Assembly (NCBI GenBank): GCA_028716525.1
Contig: JAQUPQ010000022.1
Span: 1 to 64,000 of the forward strand
Direction: 5' to 3'
Source: Terriglobia bacterium
GTDB taxonomy: Bacteria > Acidobacteriota > Terriglobia > JAIQFV01
Length of the DNA: 64,000 bases
The notes below the pieces were generated by a model. That model made no database searches, had not been told where the DNA came from, and was given only the letters and a program-made list of their open reading frames with translations. Shown in pieces: positions 595 through 16,060 of this stretch. Within the stretch, counting starts at the first letter, position 1. Each line of letters starts with the position of its first letter. A program made the position numbers and the translations under genes.

Positions 595-686
595 GCCCAA
601 CCAGCGGCTGGTGCGGACAAAACTTCGGCGCTCATGTCTACAGTATTCGTGTCCTTCAATTTTGCCGCACAGCCCATCCGTTAGGC
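595..686 (+). repeat. attC-like recombination site (best example)
   Basis: R'' is GCCCAAC (595-601, fits RYYYAAC) and R' is GTTAGGC (680-686, fits GTTRRRY). Each is followed inward by a 5-base spacer. The left inner arm GCTGGTGCGG (607-616) pairs with the right arm, whose reverse complement is GGCTGTGCGG, leaving one extra G in the left arm as an extrahelical base. The helix then extends into an AAAA/TTTT pair. Core motifs, spacer lengths, bulged base and total length of 92 bp all match the integron attC plan, and the site lies 19 bp after the preceding stop codon. Confidence 0.7.
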
Positions 687-2191: not shown

Positions 2192-2286
2192 TAAAAAGGG
2201 GTCAAACCTGGACACTGGACAGAGGGGAAACTGCTACCTTGCACCGCGTTGCTTTGTCGAATGTCCAACTCTGACCCCCTTCATTG
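2192..2286 (+). repeat. ~95-bp palindromic repeat, copy A
   Basis: The left end runs AAAAAGGGGTCAAACCTGG and the right end CCAACTCTGACCCCCTTCAT, giving terminal inverted repeats of about 18 bp. The interior carries GGGAAACTGCTACCTTGCAC and a TTGCTTTGTCGAATGTCC segment. It lies about 85 bp after the phosphatase stop. Copies B and C have the same structure, with C in the opposite orientation. Confidence 0.85.
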
Positions 2287-2482
2287 CGGCCCGAGGAATC
2301 CGATTTTGCGCCCGCATGGCGACAGCCGTGCTCTCCCCCCAGCTTTGGTAGCGCAGCCGAGTCAGCAGTCCAGACGAAGGCTGCGGCTTTTGCGCGCCGT
2401 CGCAATAAACCTCGGACACCCGCGAGATGCTTTCATATCCTCTGAGAAGAGCCCCATAGACAACTTGTGAGGGGACGCCTGC

Positions 2483-2507
2483 GTGTTATGCGGAAGCCGG
2501 ATAACAC
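2483..2507. repeat. Hairpin GTGTTAT/ATAACAC
   Basis: GTGTTAT at 2483-2489 pairs with ATAACAC at 2501-2507. An inner CGG/CCG pair is separated from the outer stem by a G-G mismatch, with an AAG loop. There is no T-run, so it is not a normal terminator. It may be part of a decayed recombination site. Confidence 0.45.
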
Positions 2508-2650
2508 TCCGGGCAAAGGAATCGGCCGAGCATAAGACTTTGAAAATCTACTCGTTGCAAAGATCATCGGTTGTTGTATGATTTGGAGGGAACCCGAAGA
2601 ATGAGATTGTCTGGAAACCATATAATCAGTAGTTAGACGGACCAACAAAA

Positions 2651-2926
2651 ATGAAAAACCTTGAAGACTCTGTTGCGAACTATATCTTCGTTCTTGCCGA
2701 GTGCAGAGAAAAAACACATCGTGCAGAGGATCGCGACCGGTACACTCGGCACTTGGCTCAGGCCGCGGTGATGTTCTCCATTTTACGAAAGGGCGCCGCG
2801 TTAGAGGAATTCAATAGAATTGTGGCTGAAGAACAGCGTTCATACGGTTGGGACTACCTCTCGGATGAGCCAGGTCGAGCAGCAGAAGAAGCTTTTGCAA
2901 GGTTTGTGAAGGCCGTGGGAGCATAA
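2651..2926 (+). CDS. Small hypothetical protein
   Basis: This is a 91-residue soluble, charged, mostly helical protein without signal peptide or membrane segment. I recognise no family. The ATG at 2651 lies about 13 bp after an attC-like 3' core (GTTAGAC, 2632-2638), and the stop codon at 2924-2926 lies inside the left flank of palindromic repeat B. The gene is therefore tightly packed between the two kinds of site, as a cassette gene would be. Base composition is similar to its neighbours. Function unknown. Confidence 0.5.
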   Translation: MKNLEDSVANYIFVLAECREKTHRAEDRDRYTRHLAQAAVMFSILRKGAALEEFNRIVAEEQRSYGWDYLSDEPGRAAEEAFARFVKAVGA

Positions 2927-3016
2927 AAAGGGTCAAACCTGGACACTGGACAGACGGGAAACTGCTACCTTGCACCATGTTGCTTTGTCGAATGTCCAGG
3001 TCTGACCCCCTTCATT
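2922..3016 (+). repeat. ~95-bp palindromic repeat, copy B
   Basis: Nearly identical to copy A: left end CATAAAAAGGGTCAAACCTG, interior GGGAAACTGCTACCTTGCAC, right end GTCCAGGTCTGACCCCCTTC. It begins at the TAA stop of the preceding gene, so that stop codon is part of the repeat flank. Confidence 0.9.
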
Positions 3017-3501: not shown

Positions 3502-3598
3502 CATAAAAAGTGGTCAAACCTGGACATTCGACAAAGCAACGCGGTGCAAGGTAGCAGTTTCCCGCATGTCCAGTGTCCAGGTTTGATCCCCTTCATTC
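3502..3598 (-). repeat. ~95-bp palindromic repeat, copy C (inverted)
   Basis: This is the reverse complement of copies A and B: it opens with CATAAAAAGTGGTCAAACCT and GACATTCGACAAAGCAACGC, then GTGCAAGGTAGCAGTTTCCC, and ends GTCCAGGTTTGATCCCCTTC. Both orientations therefore occur after genes, so the element is placed independently of its inner polarity. It lies nine bases after a stop codon. Confidence 0.9.
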
Positions 3599-3703
3599 CC
3601 CTTCATTTATTGTCGCAATTATCCTTGTTATTGACATTGCTTTTTGCTCGCACAACAAAGTCGCAAATGATTCAATAGATACCAAGAATGGAGGAACGCG
3701 GTC

Positions 3704-4299
<596 letters not shown>

Positions 4300-4397: not shown

Positions 4398-4554
4398 ACT
4401 CAACAAGCTGGCTGACGGCCGAAGCTGCGGTGGTTTCACGCTGCGCGCAAGAAAATGAGTCAGTATTAGACGCGCGCCGCCAATGTTGGACTGCAGTGCG
4501 GATAGTACGTTAGTAAAGTTGACCACGCCGCAGCTTAGGTCCGGTCCGTTAGAA
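4398..4554 (+). repeat. attC-like recombination site (long form)
   Basis: The left core ACTCAAC (4398-4404) fits RYYYAAC. The right core GTTAGAA (4548-4554) fits GTTRRRY except at the last base. Both have 5-base spacers. Further in, AAGCTGCGG followed by TGGT (4422-4434) pairs with ACCACGCCGCAGCTT (4522-4536) with one bulged base. The site separates the broken RibD-like gene from the CPBP gene, as a cassette boundary would. Confidence 0.45.
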
Positions 4555-4575
4555 CTCAGCCGAACGGGAGCTTCG

Positions 4576-5286
4576 ATGACACAACCTGATTTCCTCTATT
4601 TGGCGCTTATAGCGATCCTATTGTTGCTCGACAGTTTCATGCTGTGGCCCATGTTCCTTCGGCGGTCACAATCTGATCCAGGTCGGGCTCGGGTGTGGAT
4701 TTGGTCGGCTTGGATGAGCATGTTGTGGACGCTGGTTGCCGCCGGATTTGCGGTGTGGCTGCTCGAGGCACGAACTTGGGGGGCACTCCGATTCATGACC
4801 CCTCACGGGTGGCGGCTATGGGGCGCAATCGGTCTCGTGTTGGCGCTTGCAATAGCTTACGGCCGACCCATCCTTAGGATCGCACGAAGCAACCGCCCGA
4901 AGCGGGTCAAACTGGGAAACCCACATGTCGAAAAACTTTCGCCACATACACGATTTGAACTAGGTTGGTGGGTGGCGCTATCGCTGTCAGCTGGGTTTTG
5001 TGAAGAGTTCCTCTTTCGCGGATACCTCATCTGGGCCTTTCAGCCGATGCTCGGTTTGTGGGGCGCTGCTGCATTTTCGGTGGTTGTGTTCGCGGCCGCG
5101 CACGCGTACCAAGGAATAAAAGGTATATTGTTGGCTGGTATTGTCGGCATCCTGCTTACACTTGTGGTGCTGATTTCCGGATCGCTCTATCCGGCCATGG
5201 CATTGCATGCACTCGTTGACGTCGGCCAGGGGCTGATGGCGTGGTTTGTGTTACGTCAAGCGCAGGGCCAAAGTGAAATAATTTGA
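4576..5286 (+). CDS. CPBP-family intramembrane protease
   Basis: This 236-residue integral membrane protein has about seven likely helices. It carries the CPBP (CAAX protease/bacteriocin-processing) motifs: EEFLFRG near residue 142, FAAAHAYQG near residue 175, and a later helix with HALVDVGQGL. The glutamates and histidines are the expected metal ligands. The ATG at 4576 was chosen because GGGAG lies eight bases upstream. The gene begins 21 bp after an attC-like core. Homologues act in prenyl-protein processing or bacteriocin immunity, and the substrate here is unknown. Confidence 0.8.
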   Translation: MTQPDFLYLALIAILLLLDSFMLWPMFLRRSQSDPGRARVWIWSAWMSMLWTLVAAGFAVWLLEARTWGALRFMTPHGWRLWGAIGLVLALAIAYGRPILRIARSNRPKRVKLGNPHVEKLSPHTRFELGWWVALSLSAGFCEEFLFRGYLIWAFQPMLGLWGAAAFSVVVFAAAHAYQGIKGILLAGIVGILLTLVVLISGSLYPAMALHALVDVGQGLMAWFVLRQAQGQSEII

Positions 5287-5315
5287 GGGTAGTCGCAAGT
5301 TCAAACGGGGCAAGT

Positions 5316-5346
5316 TCAAAAGGGATCGGACCCGGACATTTGACGC
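5316..5346 (-). repeat. Half-copy D of the palindromic repeat
   Basis: AAGGGATCGGACCCGGACAT resembles the left terminal repeat seen in copy C (GGTCAAACCTGGACATTCGA), but is diverged and lacks the interior. It is inverted relative to the half-copy at 5938-5962, so the two flank the reductase gene between them. Confidence 0.5.
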
Positions 5347-5385
5347 TGGTCGTCAGGCGGCGCCAGCACTCCATACGAGGACACC

Positions 5386-5952
5386 ATGCGTAAAATAATA
5401 TTTGCCATGTCGGTATCGGTCGATGGCTTTGTCGAAACGGCTAGCGGCGATCTAAGCTGGGCTTCTCCCGACCCGGAATTGCAGCAACACGTCATCGGTC
5501 GGGAGAGCACAATCGATACCCATCTCTACGGACGGCGGCTGTACGAAACCATGTATCCATATTGGCTAAAAGCAGGTGAAGATCCTTCAGCAACAAAATT
5601 CGATATCGAATATGCTCAAATCTGGAAGGAAAGAAGGAAAATCGTGTTTTCGAAGACGCTGGCTCAAGTCGGCGGTAATTGTCAATTATTCAGAGGGAAT
5701 ATCTCAGAAGAGATGCATAAGCTGAAAGCACAACCGGGAAAAGACATGTTTATCGGTGGTCCTAATCTTGCTTCGACCTTCATGAAACGCGGTTTGATCG
5801 ATGAATATTGGCTATATGTTTACCCAATTATTCTTGGAAGCGGCAAACCGATGTTTCCGCACTTGGGCGACAGGATCAACCTAAAGCTCATGGAGACACA
5901 CAGATTTGGTTCCGGAGTCGTTCTTCTCAAATTGTCTAATGTCCAGGTTTGA
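5386..5952 (+). CDS. RibD C-terminal/DHFR-fold reductase-like protein
   Basis: This 188-residue protein belongs to the dihydrofolate-reductase-like RibD C-terminal family. It opens with MRKIIFAMSVSVDGFVE, has HLYGRRLYETM near residue 46, IVFSKTL near residue 86, a KDMFIGGPNLASTF nucleotide-binding loop near residue 120 and LYVYPIILGSGKPMF near residue 142. It is probably an NADPH-dependent reductase, substrate unknown. The final codons (reading SNVQV then TGA) are supplied by the repeat half at 5938. The natural C-terminus may thus have been altered by the repeat. Half-repeats in opposite orientation flank the gene. Confidence 0.8.
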   Translation: MRKIIFAMSVSVDGFVETASGDLSWASPDPELQQHVIGRESTIDTHLYGRRLYETMYPYWLKAGEDPSATKFDIEYAQIWKERRKIVFSKTLAQVGGNCQLFRGNISEEMHKLKAQPGKDMFIGGPNLASTFMKRGLIDEYWLYVYPIILGSGKPMFPHLGDRINLKLMETHRFGSGVVLLKLSNVQV

Positions 5953-5962
5953 CCCCCGTCAT
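5938..5962 (+). repeat. Half-copy E of the palindromic repeat
   Basis: AATGTCCAGGTTTGACCCCC matches the right terminal repeat of copies A and B. It provides the last codons and TGA stop of the reductase gene and ends directly against the truncated attC-like 3' half. Confidence 0.8.
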
Positions 5963-5963
5963 T

Positions 5964-5995
5964 GTCTTATACAGACTGTATAATCATTGTTAGGC
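5964..5995 (+). repeat. Truncated attC-like 3' half
   Basis: A hairpin TTATACAG-A-CTGTATAA (5967-5983) is followed by ATCATT and the core GTTAGGC (5989-5995). The left core that should pair with it is absent. In its place stands the end of repeat half E, so the repeat appears to have cut into this site. Confidence 0.5.
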
Positions 5996-6043
5996 GGAAC
6001 TGAAGGTCCTGGAATCTGGCAATACACGCACAAGGAGAAGCGC

Positions 6044-6238
6044 ATGGCAAAATGCCCGTACTGCAAACAAGAGGTCACTTTGGAAAAAGCCAAGAGAGAA
6101 TCAGCCGATGTCAGCGAGGAAGTACATAAAGAAGTACATGGCCTGGTAAAAAAGGAAATCATGTATTCGTGTCCGCATTGTGATGCTGTTCTTGGATTCG
6201 GCTTTTTCTTTGGCGGTTTCCTCACCGGAAGACCGTAA
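6044..6238 (+). CDS. Small zinc-ribbon protein
   Basis: This 64-residue protein has two cysteine pairs: CPYC at residues 4-7 and CPHC near residue 48, separated by a charged helix. They would form one zinc ribbon. The last residues, LGFGFFFGGFLTGRP, are hydrophobic. The ATG at 6044 follows AAGGAGAAGCGC, a good ribosome site; an upstream start at 5987 has none. The gene is 63 bp upstream of the selenocysteine-type glutaredoxin and probably shares a transcript with it. A regulatory or metal-binding role is possible but not shown. Confidence 0.7.
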   Translation: MAKCPYCKQEVTLEKAKRESADVSEEVHKEVHGLVKKEIMYSCPHCDAVLGFGFFFGGFLTGRP

Positions 6239-6301
6239 TTTGCCTCCCCATCCTGCCTTGCCAGTTTGGCAAAGTGCGGAGGTAGATCAAGGAGATTCTC
6301 G

Positions 6302-6538
6302 ATGAACAAAAAGGTCGTGGTATTCAGCCAACCCGGCTGAATGTTTTGCGGAAAGGTGAAAGAGTTTCTTTCACAGAAAAAGATAGACTTTACGGATCGG
6401 AACATCGCCGCGGATGAGACAGCACTCAAGGAAATTGAGAAACTCGGCTATATGACGACGCCGGTGATTTTAGTGGATGATCAAGTGGTAGTGGGATTTG
6501 ATCGACCAAAATTGGAGAATTTGCTGCGGGGCAGTTGA
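6302..6538 (+). CDS. Glutaredoxin-like protein, probable selenoprotein (Sec13)
   Basis: Reading from ATG 6302 (AAGGAG nine bases upstream) gives a 78-residue glutaredoxin-like protein if the TGA at 6338-6340 is decoded as selenocysteine. The N-terminal strand KKVVVFSQPG leads to U-M-F-C, so Sec takes the place of the first cysteine of the CxxC redox motif and Cys16 remains. Downstream are GKVKEFLSQKKIDF, MTTPVILV with the cis-proline, and VVGFDRPKLENLL, all typical of glutaredoxins. A SECIS-like hairpin lies at 6356-6374. Starting at ATG 6341 would remove the first strand and the active-site residue. A simple nonsense mutation of TGC remains possible. Confidence 0.75.
6356..6374 (+). promoter_or_regulatory. 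Bacterial SECIS-like hairpin
   Basis: GTGAAAG (6356-6362) and CTTTCAC (6368-6374) form a perfect 7-bp stem around the loop AGTTT. The loop has G as its second base (6364). The loop starts 22 bases after the UGA. The known bacterial SECIS plan is a short stem about 16-37 bases after UGA with a G among the first two apical-loop bases, and this hairpin fits it. Confidence 0.7.
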
Positions 6539-7120
6539 ACGTCATTGCGGCGCCGCGTTTCTGTTACCGGGGCGGACAAGGAATGCATAAGTCATATATG
6601 GAGAGGGGCGGCAGAGAGTGGTTCGTTTTGTTTTTGGGTTCCCCGATTGTCCTTTGAGATTGGTGCGCGCTTGAGGCGTTGCACAATTTCGCTGTGTCGC
6701 CCCCTTCAGGGGCTCATTTGTGCTGTGGTCATTCGCCTGCACCTGAGGCTTACGCCCCGCCCTGCGGGGCTCGAGCATTGGTAGGTGAGAAATGACTCAT
6801 CGCCCAGCTTCCGCTGGGGGAATTAGCGTCACTCACCCTGTGACATGACGGGAAACTGCTACCTTACACCGTGTTGCAATGTCTAATGTCCAGGTCTGAC
6901 CCCCTTCATTCCCAGGCTACGGTCATCCCGTCCGCACAAGGCGGACTGGCTTGATAGATAGAGACAGCCACCAATTTTCCTAAAAGCATGATTTGGACCG
7001 GACCCCAAGTCAGAGACACTGATAACAAGGACAGAATGAATGAGCTTCTGCGGGGAATTATGAGCCCTCATAAGAAAAGCAAAAGGCTCACTTTTCCACG
7101 ACCCGGAAATGTGGGCCTTC
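6539..7120. other. Gap with dispersed repeats
   Basis: No gene is supported. The segment at about 6697-6835 has short inverted repeats such as CCCCTTCAGGGG, CCCGCCCTGCGGGG and CCCAGCTTCCGCTGGG, related in style to those at 61438-62031. A degraded palindromic repeat follows at 6842-6911. Confidence 0.5.
6842..6911 (+). repeat. ~95-bp palindromic repeat, degraded copy F
   Basis: GGGAAACTGCTACCTTACAC and TCTAATGTCCAGGTCTGACC match the interior and right end of copies A and B. The left terminal repeat is missing or changed beyond recognition. Confidence 0.75.
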
Positions 7121-7124
7121 GAAA

Positions 7125-7200
7125 TTGGTTGCGGGGTAAAGATTTGAACCAATCCCCCAAAGGGGGACGCGCGGGGGATTATGAGCCCTTGAACAAGGCT
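7125..7200 (-). pseudogene. Decayed tRNA-fMet copy (3' part)
   Basis: TTGGTTGCGGGG, GATTTGAACC and GATTATGAGCCC occur in the same order as in the intact gene at 7287-7363, but with changed loops and an insertion. A shorter echo, CGGGGAATTATGAGCCCT, lies at 7050-7068. These are remnants of duplicated tRNA sequence downstream of the intact gene. Confidence 0.5.
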
Positions 7201-7286
7201 AGAGATTTTCAGATAGGGTTAGAAAAATTGGCATCCCGCTCGAAAACGAGAAGGGCCCATCCTGTCATTCAGAATGAGCCCAGATT

Positions 7287-7363
<77 letters not shown>

Positions 7364-7384
7364 ACAAAACTAACTTTTCATCCC

Positions 7385-7431
7385 TCAGAGCTGAAACGGG
7401 AGCCCTACAAGCTACTCCACCGCGGTGGACT
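7385..7431 (-). pseudogene. Decayed tRNA-fMet copy (5' part)
   Basis: The minus strand reads CCGCGGTGGAGTAGCTTGTA followed by GGGCTC, clearly related to the 5' half of the intact tRNA but with several deletions. It lies between the promoter at 7461-7489 and the intact tRNA, so it may be transcribed with it. Confidence 0.45.
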
Positions 7432-7460
7432 CCAACCCGCGTCATATCAAAATCCAGTTG

Positions 7461-7489
7461 AGAATAACTGTGCCTACAGGATTCGTCAA
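7461..7489 (-). promoter_or_regulatory. Sigma70-type promoter for tRNA-fMet
   Basis: On the minus strand TTGACG (7489-7484) and TATTCT (7466-7461) are separated by exactly 17 bases. It lies about 100 bp upstream of the tRNA 5' end and points toward it. Confidence 0.6.
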
Positions 7490-7503
7490 GGGGGAAAACC
7501 AGG

Positions 7504-7551
7504 GGCCAGGTGTCAGGGGTCGGGTGTCAGGTATCGGGTTTCAGGTCCTGG
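7504..7551. repeat. Short degenerate GGTGTCAGG tandem repeat
   Basis: CAGGTGTCAGGGGTCGGGTG and GTCAGGTATCGGGTTTCAGG are degenerate units of about 7-10 bases. They are the reverse-oriented counterpart of the array at 7645-7748. Confidence 0.7.
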
Positions 7552-7644
7552 GAAGAACGTAAGTATTTGTGGGAGCTTTGCTCAAAAATGAGTCTCAAGA
7601 ACCCGCGGCTTTCAACAAACGTCGAATGAAACGATTTTGCATTT

Positions 7645-7748
7645 CCTGGCACCTGACCCCCGACACCTGATACCTGACCCCCGACACCTGATACCTGACA
7701 CCCGACACCTGACCCCTAGCACCCGACCCCTGGCACCTGATCCCTGTT
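7645..7748. repeat. Degenerate CACCTGA(C/T) tandem array
   Basis: About ten units such as CACCTGACCCC, GACACCTGATACCTGA and CACCCGACCCC follow one another directly, without unique spacers. The array touches the stop codon of the pseudopilin gene at 7751. Together with 7504-7551 it brackets about 90 bp as a long inverted repeat. Confidence 0.8.
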
Positions 7749-7750
7749 CC

Positions 7751-8191
7751 TCACCAGCTGCTATACGGTGTCCCGTCCAATGACGTTCCGGGTGCGCCGC
7801 TGTGAACATCGACGATGCCGGATTCGGTTTGGCCGACATTAGACAGTGCGTCGCTAAAATTCACCTGCCAGGTTTGGTTGGATCGTGTGAAGGGATCTTT
7901 GGGAATTTCGCGGATGTAACCGGCGGTCACGAGGTCGTCCAGCGCCTGCGGCGCCTTCTGTTTATCAACGGTGTATTGGTCGATTAAGGAACGAAGCTGG
8001 TAGAGATCGTCTTTCAGCACAGCTTCCTTGGCGCGGATGATGGAGGCTCGATAGTTTGGAATGACGACGGTGGTCAAAATAAGTATGATCGAAACGACAA
8101 TCAACAGCTCAATGAGCGTGAAAGCCCGTTCACTGCGGGCGCCGGGGCGCCGAATATGAAAGGCCTGAAATGATTGTGCGAGAAGTTTCAT
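7751..8191 (-). CDS. Type II secretion-type pseudopilin (GspG-like)
   Basis: This 146-residue protein has a basic leader, then the prepilin motif RA|FTLIELLIVVSIILILT at about residues 24-43, and a periplasmic domain ending in SGAPGTSLDGTPYSSW. The C-terminal half (YTVDKQKAPQALDDLV, then GYIREIPKDPF) is typical of GspG-like major pseudopilins. The residue before the cleavage site is Ala instead of Gly; Glu+5 is present. The ATG at 8191 was chosen over an upstream TTG. It is the last of three leftward genes (secretin, pseudopilin, pseudopilin) and starts five bases after the previous stop. Confidence 0.85.
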   Translation of the reverse strand: MKLLAQSFQAFHIRRPGARSERAFTLIELLIVVSIILILTTVVIPNYRASIIRAKEAVLKDDLYQLRSLIDQYTVDKQKAPQALDDLVTAGYIREIPKDPFTRSNQTWQVNFSDALSNVGQTESGIVDVHSGAPGTSLDGTPYSSW

Positions 8192-15877: not shown

Positions 15878-15913
15878 GGGCGGGTTCGATTCAGGGTGTT
15901 TTGACCTGATCTC

Positions 15914-16060
15914 GTGTCGCCAAAATTCCGAACCGTCGGGATGCGGGGGACCCAGGTACGTGGGGTGAATCTTCGAGGGAGTTTATCGAAGTAGGGCACT
16001 TTCAAGCTCGAACCCGTCAGCTAACCTCGCCGGCGCCTGAGGTTTTCTGGAGAGCGGTCG
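15914..16060 (+). promoter_or_regulatory. c-di-AMP riboswitch (ydaO/yuaA leader)
   Basis: The diagnostic blocks occur in order: GCGGGGGACCCA (15943-15954), GGGGTGAATC (15962-15971), GTAGGGC (15991-15997), and CGAACCCGTCAGCTAACCTC (16009-16028), followed by GGCGCC. These match the conserved core of the ydaO/yuaA aptamer that binds cyclic di-AMP. In known cases binding stops transcription. The terminator at 16120-16147 lies downstream, and the controlled genes encode an APC permease, UspA-like and TrkA proteins. Confidence 0.93.

Follow-up and report, generated by a model that had tools for sequence, protein, structure and literature searches.

A small glutaredoxin-like redox protein of an Acidobacteriota bacterium almost certainly contains selenocysteine

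Introduction

Glutaredoxins (Grx) with the PF00462 domain and a UxxC active site are on the list of experimentally verified selenoproteins (PMC13188914, PMC9312934). For the gene described here, the nearest relative with a solved structure is the Grx1 of Clostridium (Alkaliphilus) oremlandii (cGrx1), a native selenoprotein whose catalytic selenocysteine (Sec) was replaced by Cys for crystallography and which has been proposed as the reductant of the selenoprotein MsrA (PMC7642778). Besides, the review literature ties the UXX-star (seleno)proteins, which are small and glutaredoxin-like, to metal handling. Acidobacteria are not mentioned in the reviews PMC9312934 and PMC13188914, and in the literature we found neither a description of metal-gene neighbourhoods for the selenoprotein glutaredoxin family nor a link between selenoproteins and integron cassettes.

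Here, we analyse a glutaredoxin gene in a window (i.e., the whole stretch of DNA under analysis) of 64,000 nucleotides from a soil-type Terriglobia bacterium of the Acidobacteriota, whose genome is a 4.2 Mb draft of 104 contigs and 96.5% completeness. Judging from its sequence and its relatives, this small redox protein almost certainly contains selenocysteine. The gene is a selenoprotein glutaredoxin of the UxxC kind, which is already known; the copy is new.

The Glutaredoxin Gene and Its Relatives

The features of the locus are collected in Table 1. The initial annotation had claimed (i) a complete read-through product with U-M-F-C at the redox site; (ii) a ribosome site before the upstream ATG; and (iii) homology on both sides of the TGA. 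All three claims hold: the translation from ATG 6302 continues in an intact frame past the TGA (codon 13) up to a terminal TGA at 6536-6538; the Shine-Dalgarno sequence is in place; and, when the protein is searched with Cys in place of Sec, the match to PF00462 (Glutaredoxin; 58.9 bits versus a cut-off of 22.9) is continuous across the TGA. The UGA occupies the position of the catalytic Cys, and the resolving Cys lies at +3.

Table 1. Coordinates of the features described, in positions of the window.
Feature	Position	Strand	Evidence
attC-like site GCCCAAC ... GTTAGGC, complementary inner boxes, one extra base	595..686	+	sequence
Integron-integrase 3'-end remnant (...SPIDNL*) and attI-like sequence, ending in GTTAGAC 2632-2638	2447..2638	+	similarity to the copy on contig C2
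Single end of the dispersed inverted-repeat element, before the zinc-ribbon/glutaredoxin pair	5932..5956	+	repeat search
64-aa protein, two CxxC pairs, zinc-ribbon-like (below cut-off), 63 nt upstream of glutaredoxin	6044..6238	+	sequence and profile search
Shine-Dalgarno AAGGAG, 7 nt upstream of ATG 6302	6289..6294	+	sequence
Predicted gene for a selenoprotein glutaredoxin of 78 aa with a UMFC active site	6302..6538	+	translation; PF00462; identity to C. oremlandii Grx1
In-frame UGA, predicted selenocysteine, residue 13	6338..6340	+	TGA (40) or Cys (22) among homologues; SelA co-occurrence
Resolving cysteine, residue 16 (UxxC)	6347..6349	+	alignment with cGrx1 Cys16
Predicted bacterial SECIS hairpin GTGAAAG-AGTTT-CTTTCAC, within the coding sequence	6356..6374	+	fold; covariation; synonymous-site test
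Partial copy of the dispersed inverted-repeat element, with end TGTCCAGGTCTGACCCC, after glutaredoxin	6849..6906	+	repeat search

The best match among solved structures is cGrx1 (PDB 7c10; also 7c12/7c13), with 51% identity over 75 residues and no gap. Both proteins share the catalytic residue 13 (Sec), the resolving Cys16 and the KEFLS and GFDR motifs, but cGrx1 belongs to a different phylum and has UPXC where the window copy has UMFC. In domain, Sec position and motif, the window copy agrees with the selenoprotein glutaredoxin family as described (PF00462, UxxC; PMC9312934, PMC13188914). Other family names were tried and rejected. The best NCBIfam matches are YruB (TIGR02196), at 67.4 bits under a curated cut-off of 88.55, and NrdH (TIGR02194), at 58.1 bits under 85.75; the window copy has their GF motif after the cis-proline. 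UXX-star (NF041212 and subfamilies) scores 53 under a cut-off of 66; its members are likewise small and glutaredoxin-like, and the window copy keeps the Cys at +3 (UxxC). A viral origin was also rejected, since the exact combination of UGA and hairpin and its relatives were looked for in viral contigs and none was found, while phage records hold only relatives of less than 60% identity.

The 64-aa zinc-ribbon-like protein lies on the same strand, and the two genes may possibly share a transcript. Elsewhere in the window, a RibD-like reductase frame (3704-4299) is split by a frameshift and has an intact paralogue beside it at 5386-5952, and a c-di-AMP riboswitch lies at 15908-16050 (84.2 bits).

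Selenocysteine Machinery of the Genome

The initial annotation had predicted SelA, SelB, SelD and tRNA-Sec, and had set down beforehand that a genome without SelB and tRNA-Sec would speak against selenocysteine. All four are present. Profile matches in the same genome reach 576 bits for SelA, 391 bits for SelB and 373 bits for SelD; tRNA-Sec has the anticodon UCA by ARAGORN and scores above the Rfam cut-off. SelA and SelB share a contig of 183 kb; tRNA-Sec is found on one of 105 kb and SelD on one of 4.4 kb (C101), where the SelD gene (L018) has an in-frame TGA of its own, in a GUAAK motif, followed by a strong hairpin (z -3.0).

Distribution of Selenocysteine and Cysteine Forms

When a single genome was scanned for each species, 13 glutaredoxin loci were obtained, 12 of them spanning the active site. 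TGA is found in 11 of these 12, distributed over Acidobacteriota, Chloroflexota, Nitrospirota, Rokubacteria and Clostridia, and its presence at the same codon in all of these lineages excludes the recent nonsense mutation or assembly error that the initial annotation had named as a possible refutation. Protein searches widened to Acidobacteriota (396 genomes) and Chloroflexota (400 genomes) added further TGA and Cys forms. As to whether homologues have C or U at residue 13, both occur: in the full pooled set of 62 homologues, 40 have TGA and 22 have Cys, and only these two residues alternate in that column. SelA was found above its cut-off in every TGA-form genome tested (21/21) and in no Cys-form genome (0/9), counts which do not amount to 30 independent events because the genomes are kin (five of the Cys genomes are from one family).

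In the protein tree, most of whose forks are unresolved, the window copy is placed among acidobacterial TGA forms, near those of Chloroflexota and Nitrospirota. Two genomes of the GTDB family to which the window belongs have SelA and no close relative of the window glutaredoxin, so the gene is patchy. Damage is visible in three acidobacterial copies, namely, an additional TAG in L037, a non-matching N-terminus in L030 and the loss of all but the C-terminal third in L035; hence, the gene is dispensable in some lineages. Two further observations concern individual relatives: (i) an unannotated TGA form (UPHC) occurs in Acetoanaerobium noterae; and (ii) in a chloroflexotal locus (L124, 3587-4087), a heavy-metal ATPase-like gene is followed by a tandem pair of TGA-form glutaredoxins, UMFC and UADC.

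The SECIS Hairpin

The hairpin of the initial annotation, a perfect 7-bp stem with an AGTTT loop, stands as described except for its distance: the stem begins 15 nt past the TGA, and it is the loop that begins at 22 nt. Its parts are GTGAAAG (6356-6362), the loop (6363-6367), with G at loop position 2, and CTTTCAC (6368-6374), with 7/7 pairs perfect. The loop distance of 22 nt and the loop G fall within the limits of the bacterial SECIS model. By itself, this hairpin is unexceptional and constitutes weak evidence: in the whole window, 21 of 2,349 TGA triplets (0.9%) are followed at a similar distance by a perfect 7-bp hairpin, and its folding energy is uninformative (z-score -1.2).

It is the comparative evidence that raises the hairpin far above chance. 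The stem is kept in TGA forms only: these retain on average 6.4 of the seven pairs, with 26/40 perfect, while Cys forms retain 1-5. When synonymous codons were redrawn, the mean number of pairs was 4.03 +- 0.16, with at most three perfect stems, and when the 3' arm was slid, the proportion of standard pairs fell from 91% to 35-65%. Moreover, the stem presents compensatory changes, in the series U-A/C-G/A-U and A-U/C-G/G-C: pair 2 occurs as U-A, C-G or A-U; pair 1 as G-C or A-U; and pairs 4 and 5 likewise vary on both sides. The Leu codon CTT is invariant across the 15-member UMFC/ULFC set. Four relatives of the same class (L040, L041, L042, L045) have no hairpin of the GTGAAAG type and present another one slightly downstream, CCTYTC-GGM-GARAGG, with compensatory change.

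Recoding of the UGA and Alternative Readings

The alternative that the TGA is a nonsense mutation (TGC/TGT to TGA) in an ordinary Cys glutaredoxin, now a pseudogene, draws on the facts that a single change suffices, that some relatives have decayed (L037, L030, L035) and that gene remnants occur in the zone. The conserved TGA, shared by 40 homologues of several phyla, and the covarying hairpin, conserved at synonymous sites, already refute it; the intact downstream frame and the exact co-occurrence with SelA add to this, leaving the pseudogene very unlikely.

Equally hard to sustain is the proposal that translation starts, or re-initiates, at ATG 6341 and gives a 65-aa protein without recoding. 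This ATG follows the TGA directly (TGAATG), and an ORF finder reports its frame. Nevertheless, it has no Shine-Dalgarno sequence, whereas AAGGAG precedes ATG 6302; its product would have neither the catalytic residue nor the first strand; in many TGA forms (UPYC, UPWC, UPPC and others) no ATG stands at this point; and the hairpin would be left without explanation. Lastly, a general reassignment or read-through of UGA in this organism (e.g., as Trp), in favour of which nothing was found, is extremely improbable, given that UGA terminates the glutaredoxin itself and other genes of the window, that tRNA-Sec, SelA, SelB and SelD are present, and that residue 13 alternates between Sec and Cys only.

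Recoding of the UGA at 6338 is, from the comparative sequence data, well supported. We estimate at roughly 95% the probability of the full explanation, namely, that the gene encodes a UxxC selenocysteine dithiol glutaredoxin whose UGA is recoded by means of the hairpin and SelB. On this explanation, when the ribosome reaches the UGA, SelB with Sec-tRNA-Sec(UCA) would bind the hairpin, which starts 15 nt further on and within the coding sequence; selenocysteine would be inserted as residue 13, with Cys16 as the resolving thiol; and the product would reduce disulfides or similar oxidised sulfur species, Sec being expected to be more reactive than Cys.

Mobile Elements Around the Gene

The initial annotation had placed the gene in a cassette-like zone and regarded it as possibly carried on a mobile unit. 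This idea is supported only in part. Integron remnants and inverted-repeat elements of a mobile type do occur in the zone, but the glutaredoxin is not enclosed by a pair of attC sites: the sequence RYYYAAC, needed for a pair of the form RYYYAAC ... GTTRRRY, is absent from 4398-8000, and hence no such pair surrounds 6302-6538. The status of integron gene cassette is accordingly not supported, and all matches to an integron integrase in the genome are below the curated cut-off.

Regarding the integron remnants, the segment at 2447-2635 has a counterpart on contig C2 (189 bp, 92.6% identity), where it comes after a fragment of an integrase. GTTAGAC is the usual form of the integron core. Remnants of integrase 3'-end plus attI-like sequence are repeated (window 2286-2638, L134, L136, L133), the homology among copies ending at GTTAGAC 2632-2638, after which different small cassette-like genes follow (RibD-like, CPBP, VOC-like and DinB-like).

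The inverted-end elements, of approximately 90-320 bp, are often found just after a gene. Their ends, GGGGTCAAACCTGGACA/TGTCCAGGTYTGACCCC, have 36 matches in the genome versus 0 for the reversed control. Several are held in the first 7 kb of the window, where copies lie at 2194-2285, 2925-3016 and 3506-3600, in addition to the two that flank the zinc-ribbon/glutaredoxin pair; others occur on contigs C1 (~199-208 kb), C6 (~106 kb) and C18 (~22-30 kb), and a longer copy on C1 looks as if it encoded the end of a REP-type transposase. Movement of the glutaredoxin gene appears plausible.

Function and Biological Meaning

The enzymatic role of the protein as a glutaredoxin is inferred from its family membership. 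As its GFD motif after the cis-proline is closer to the NrdH/YruB type than to classical glutathione-binding Grx, thioredoxin reductase would be at least as likely an electron donor as glutathione.

Several relatives have metal-related neighbours: (i) L029, with MerT, heavy-metal (HMA) domains, a CopZ-type protein and, directly upstream, a MerA-like disulfide reductase; (ii) L025, with a disulfide reductase and a CopZ-type protein; (iii) L032, with a metal-sensitive repressor and DUF302; and (iv) L027, with a P-type ATPase. Judging by the sequences alone, a mercury-related context is suggested for L118, an arsenic-related one for L119 and L120, and one with a copper ATPase for L031/L124. The frequent occurrence of relatives in neighbourhoods of mercury, arsenic or copper genes suggests a part in the thiol chemistry of metal(loid) stress, and the protein may act as a thiol-disulfide reductase, with oxidative or metal(loid) (Hg, As, Cu) stress favouring its Sec form. 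The window glutaredoxin itself is not adjacent to metal genes and has instead the small zinc-ribbon-like protein upstream.

For genome annotation, an ORF-based procedure would shorten this protein to a 65-aa fragment, and a well-supported selenoprotein is here added. The set of 40 relatives, in which UGA, hairpin and Sec machinery covary, would be useful for training SECIS predictors, for which the two hairpin designs at different distances are relevant as well. With regard to the family, a testable link arises between Sec-glutaredoxins and the handling of mercury, arsenic or copper. It could be, although we regard this broader picture as tentative and rather doubtful, that the Sec-glutaredoxin clade with the near-invariant SECIS assists the mer, ars and copper gene sets in metal(loid) resistance, moves horizontally across phyla with its SECIS inside the gene and survives only in recipients that have the Sec machinery; the window copy, placed among integron and inverted-repeat-element remnants, would then represent one stage of this process.
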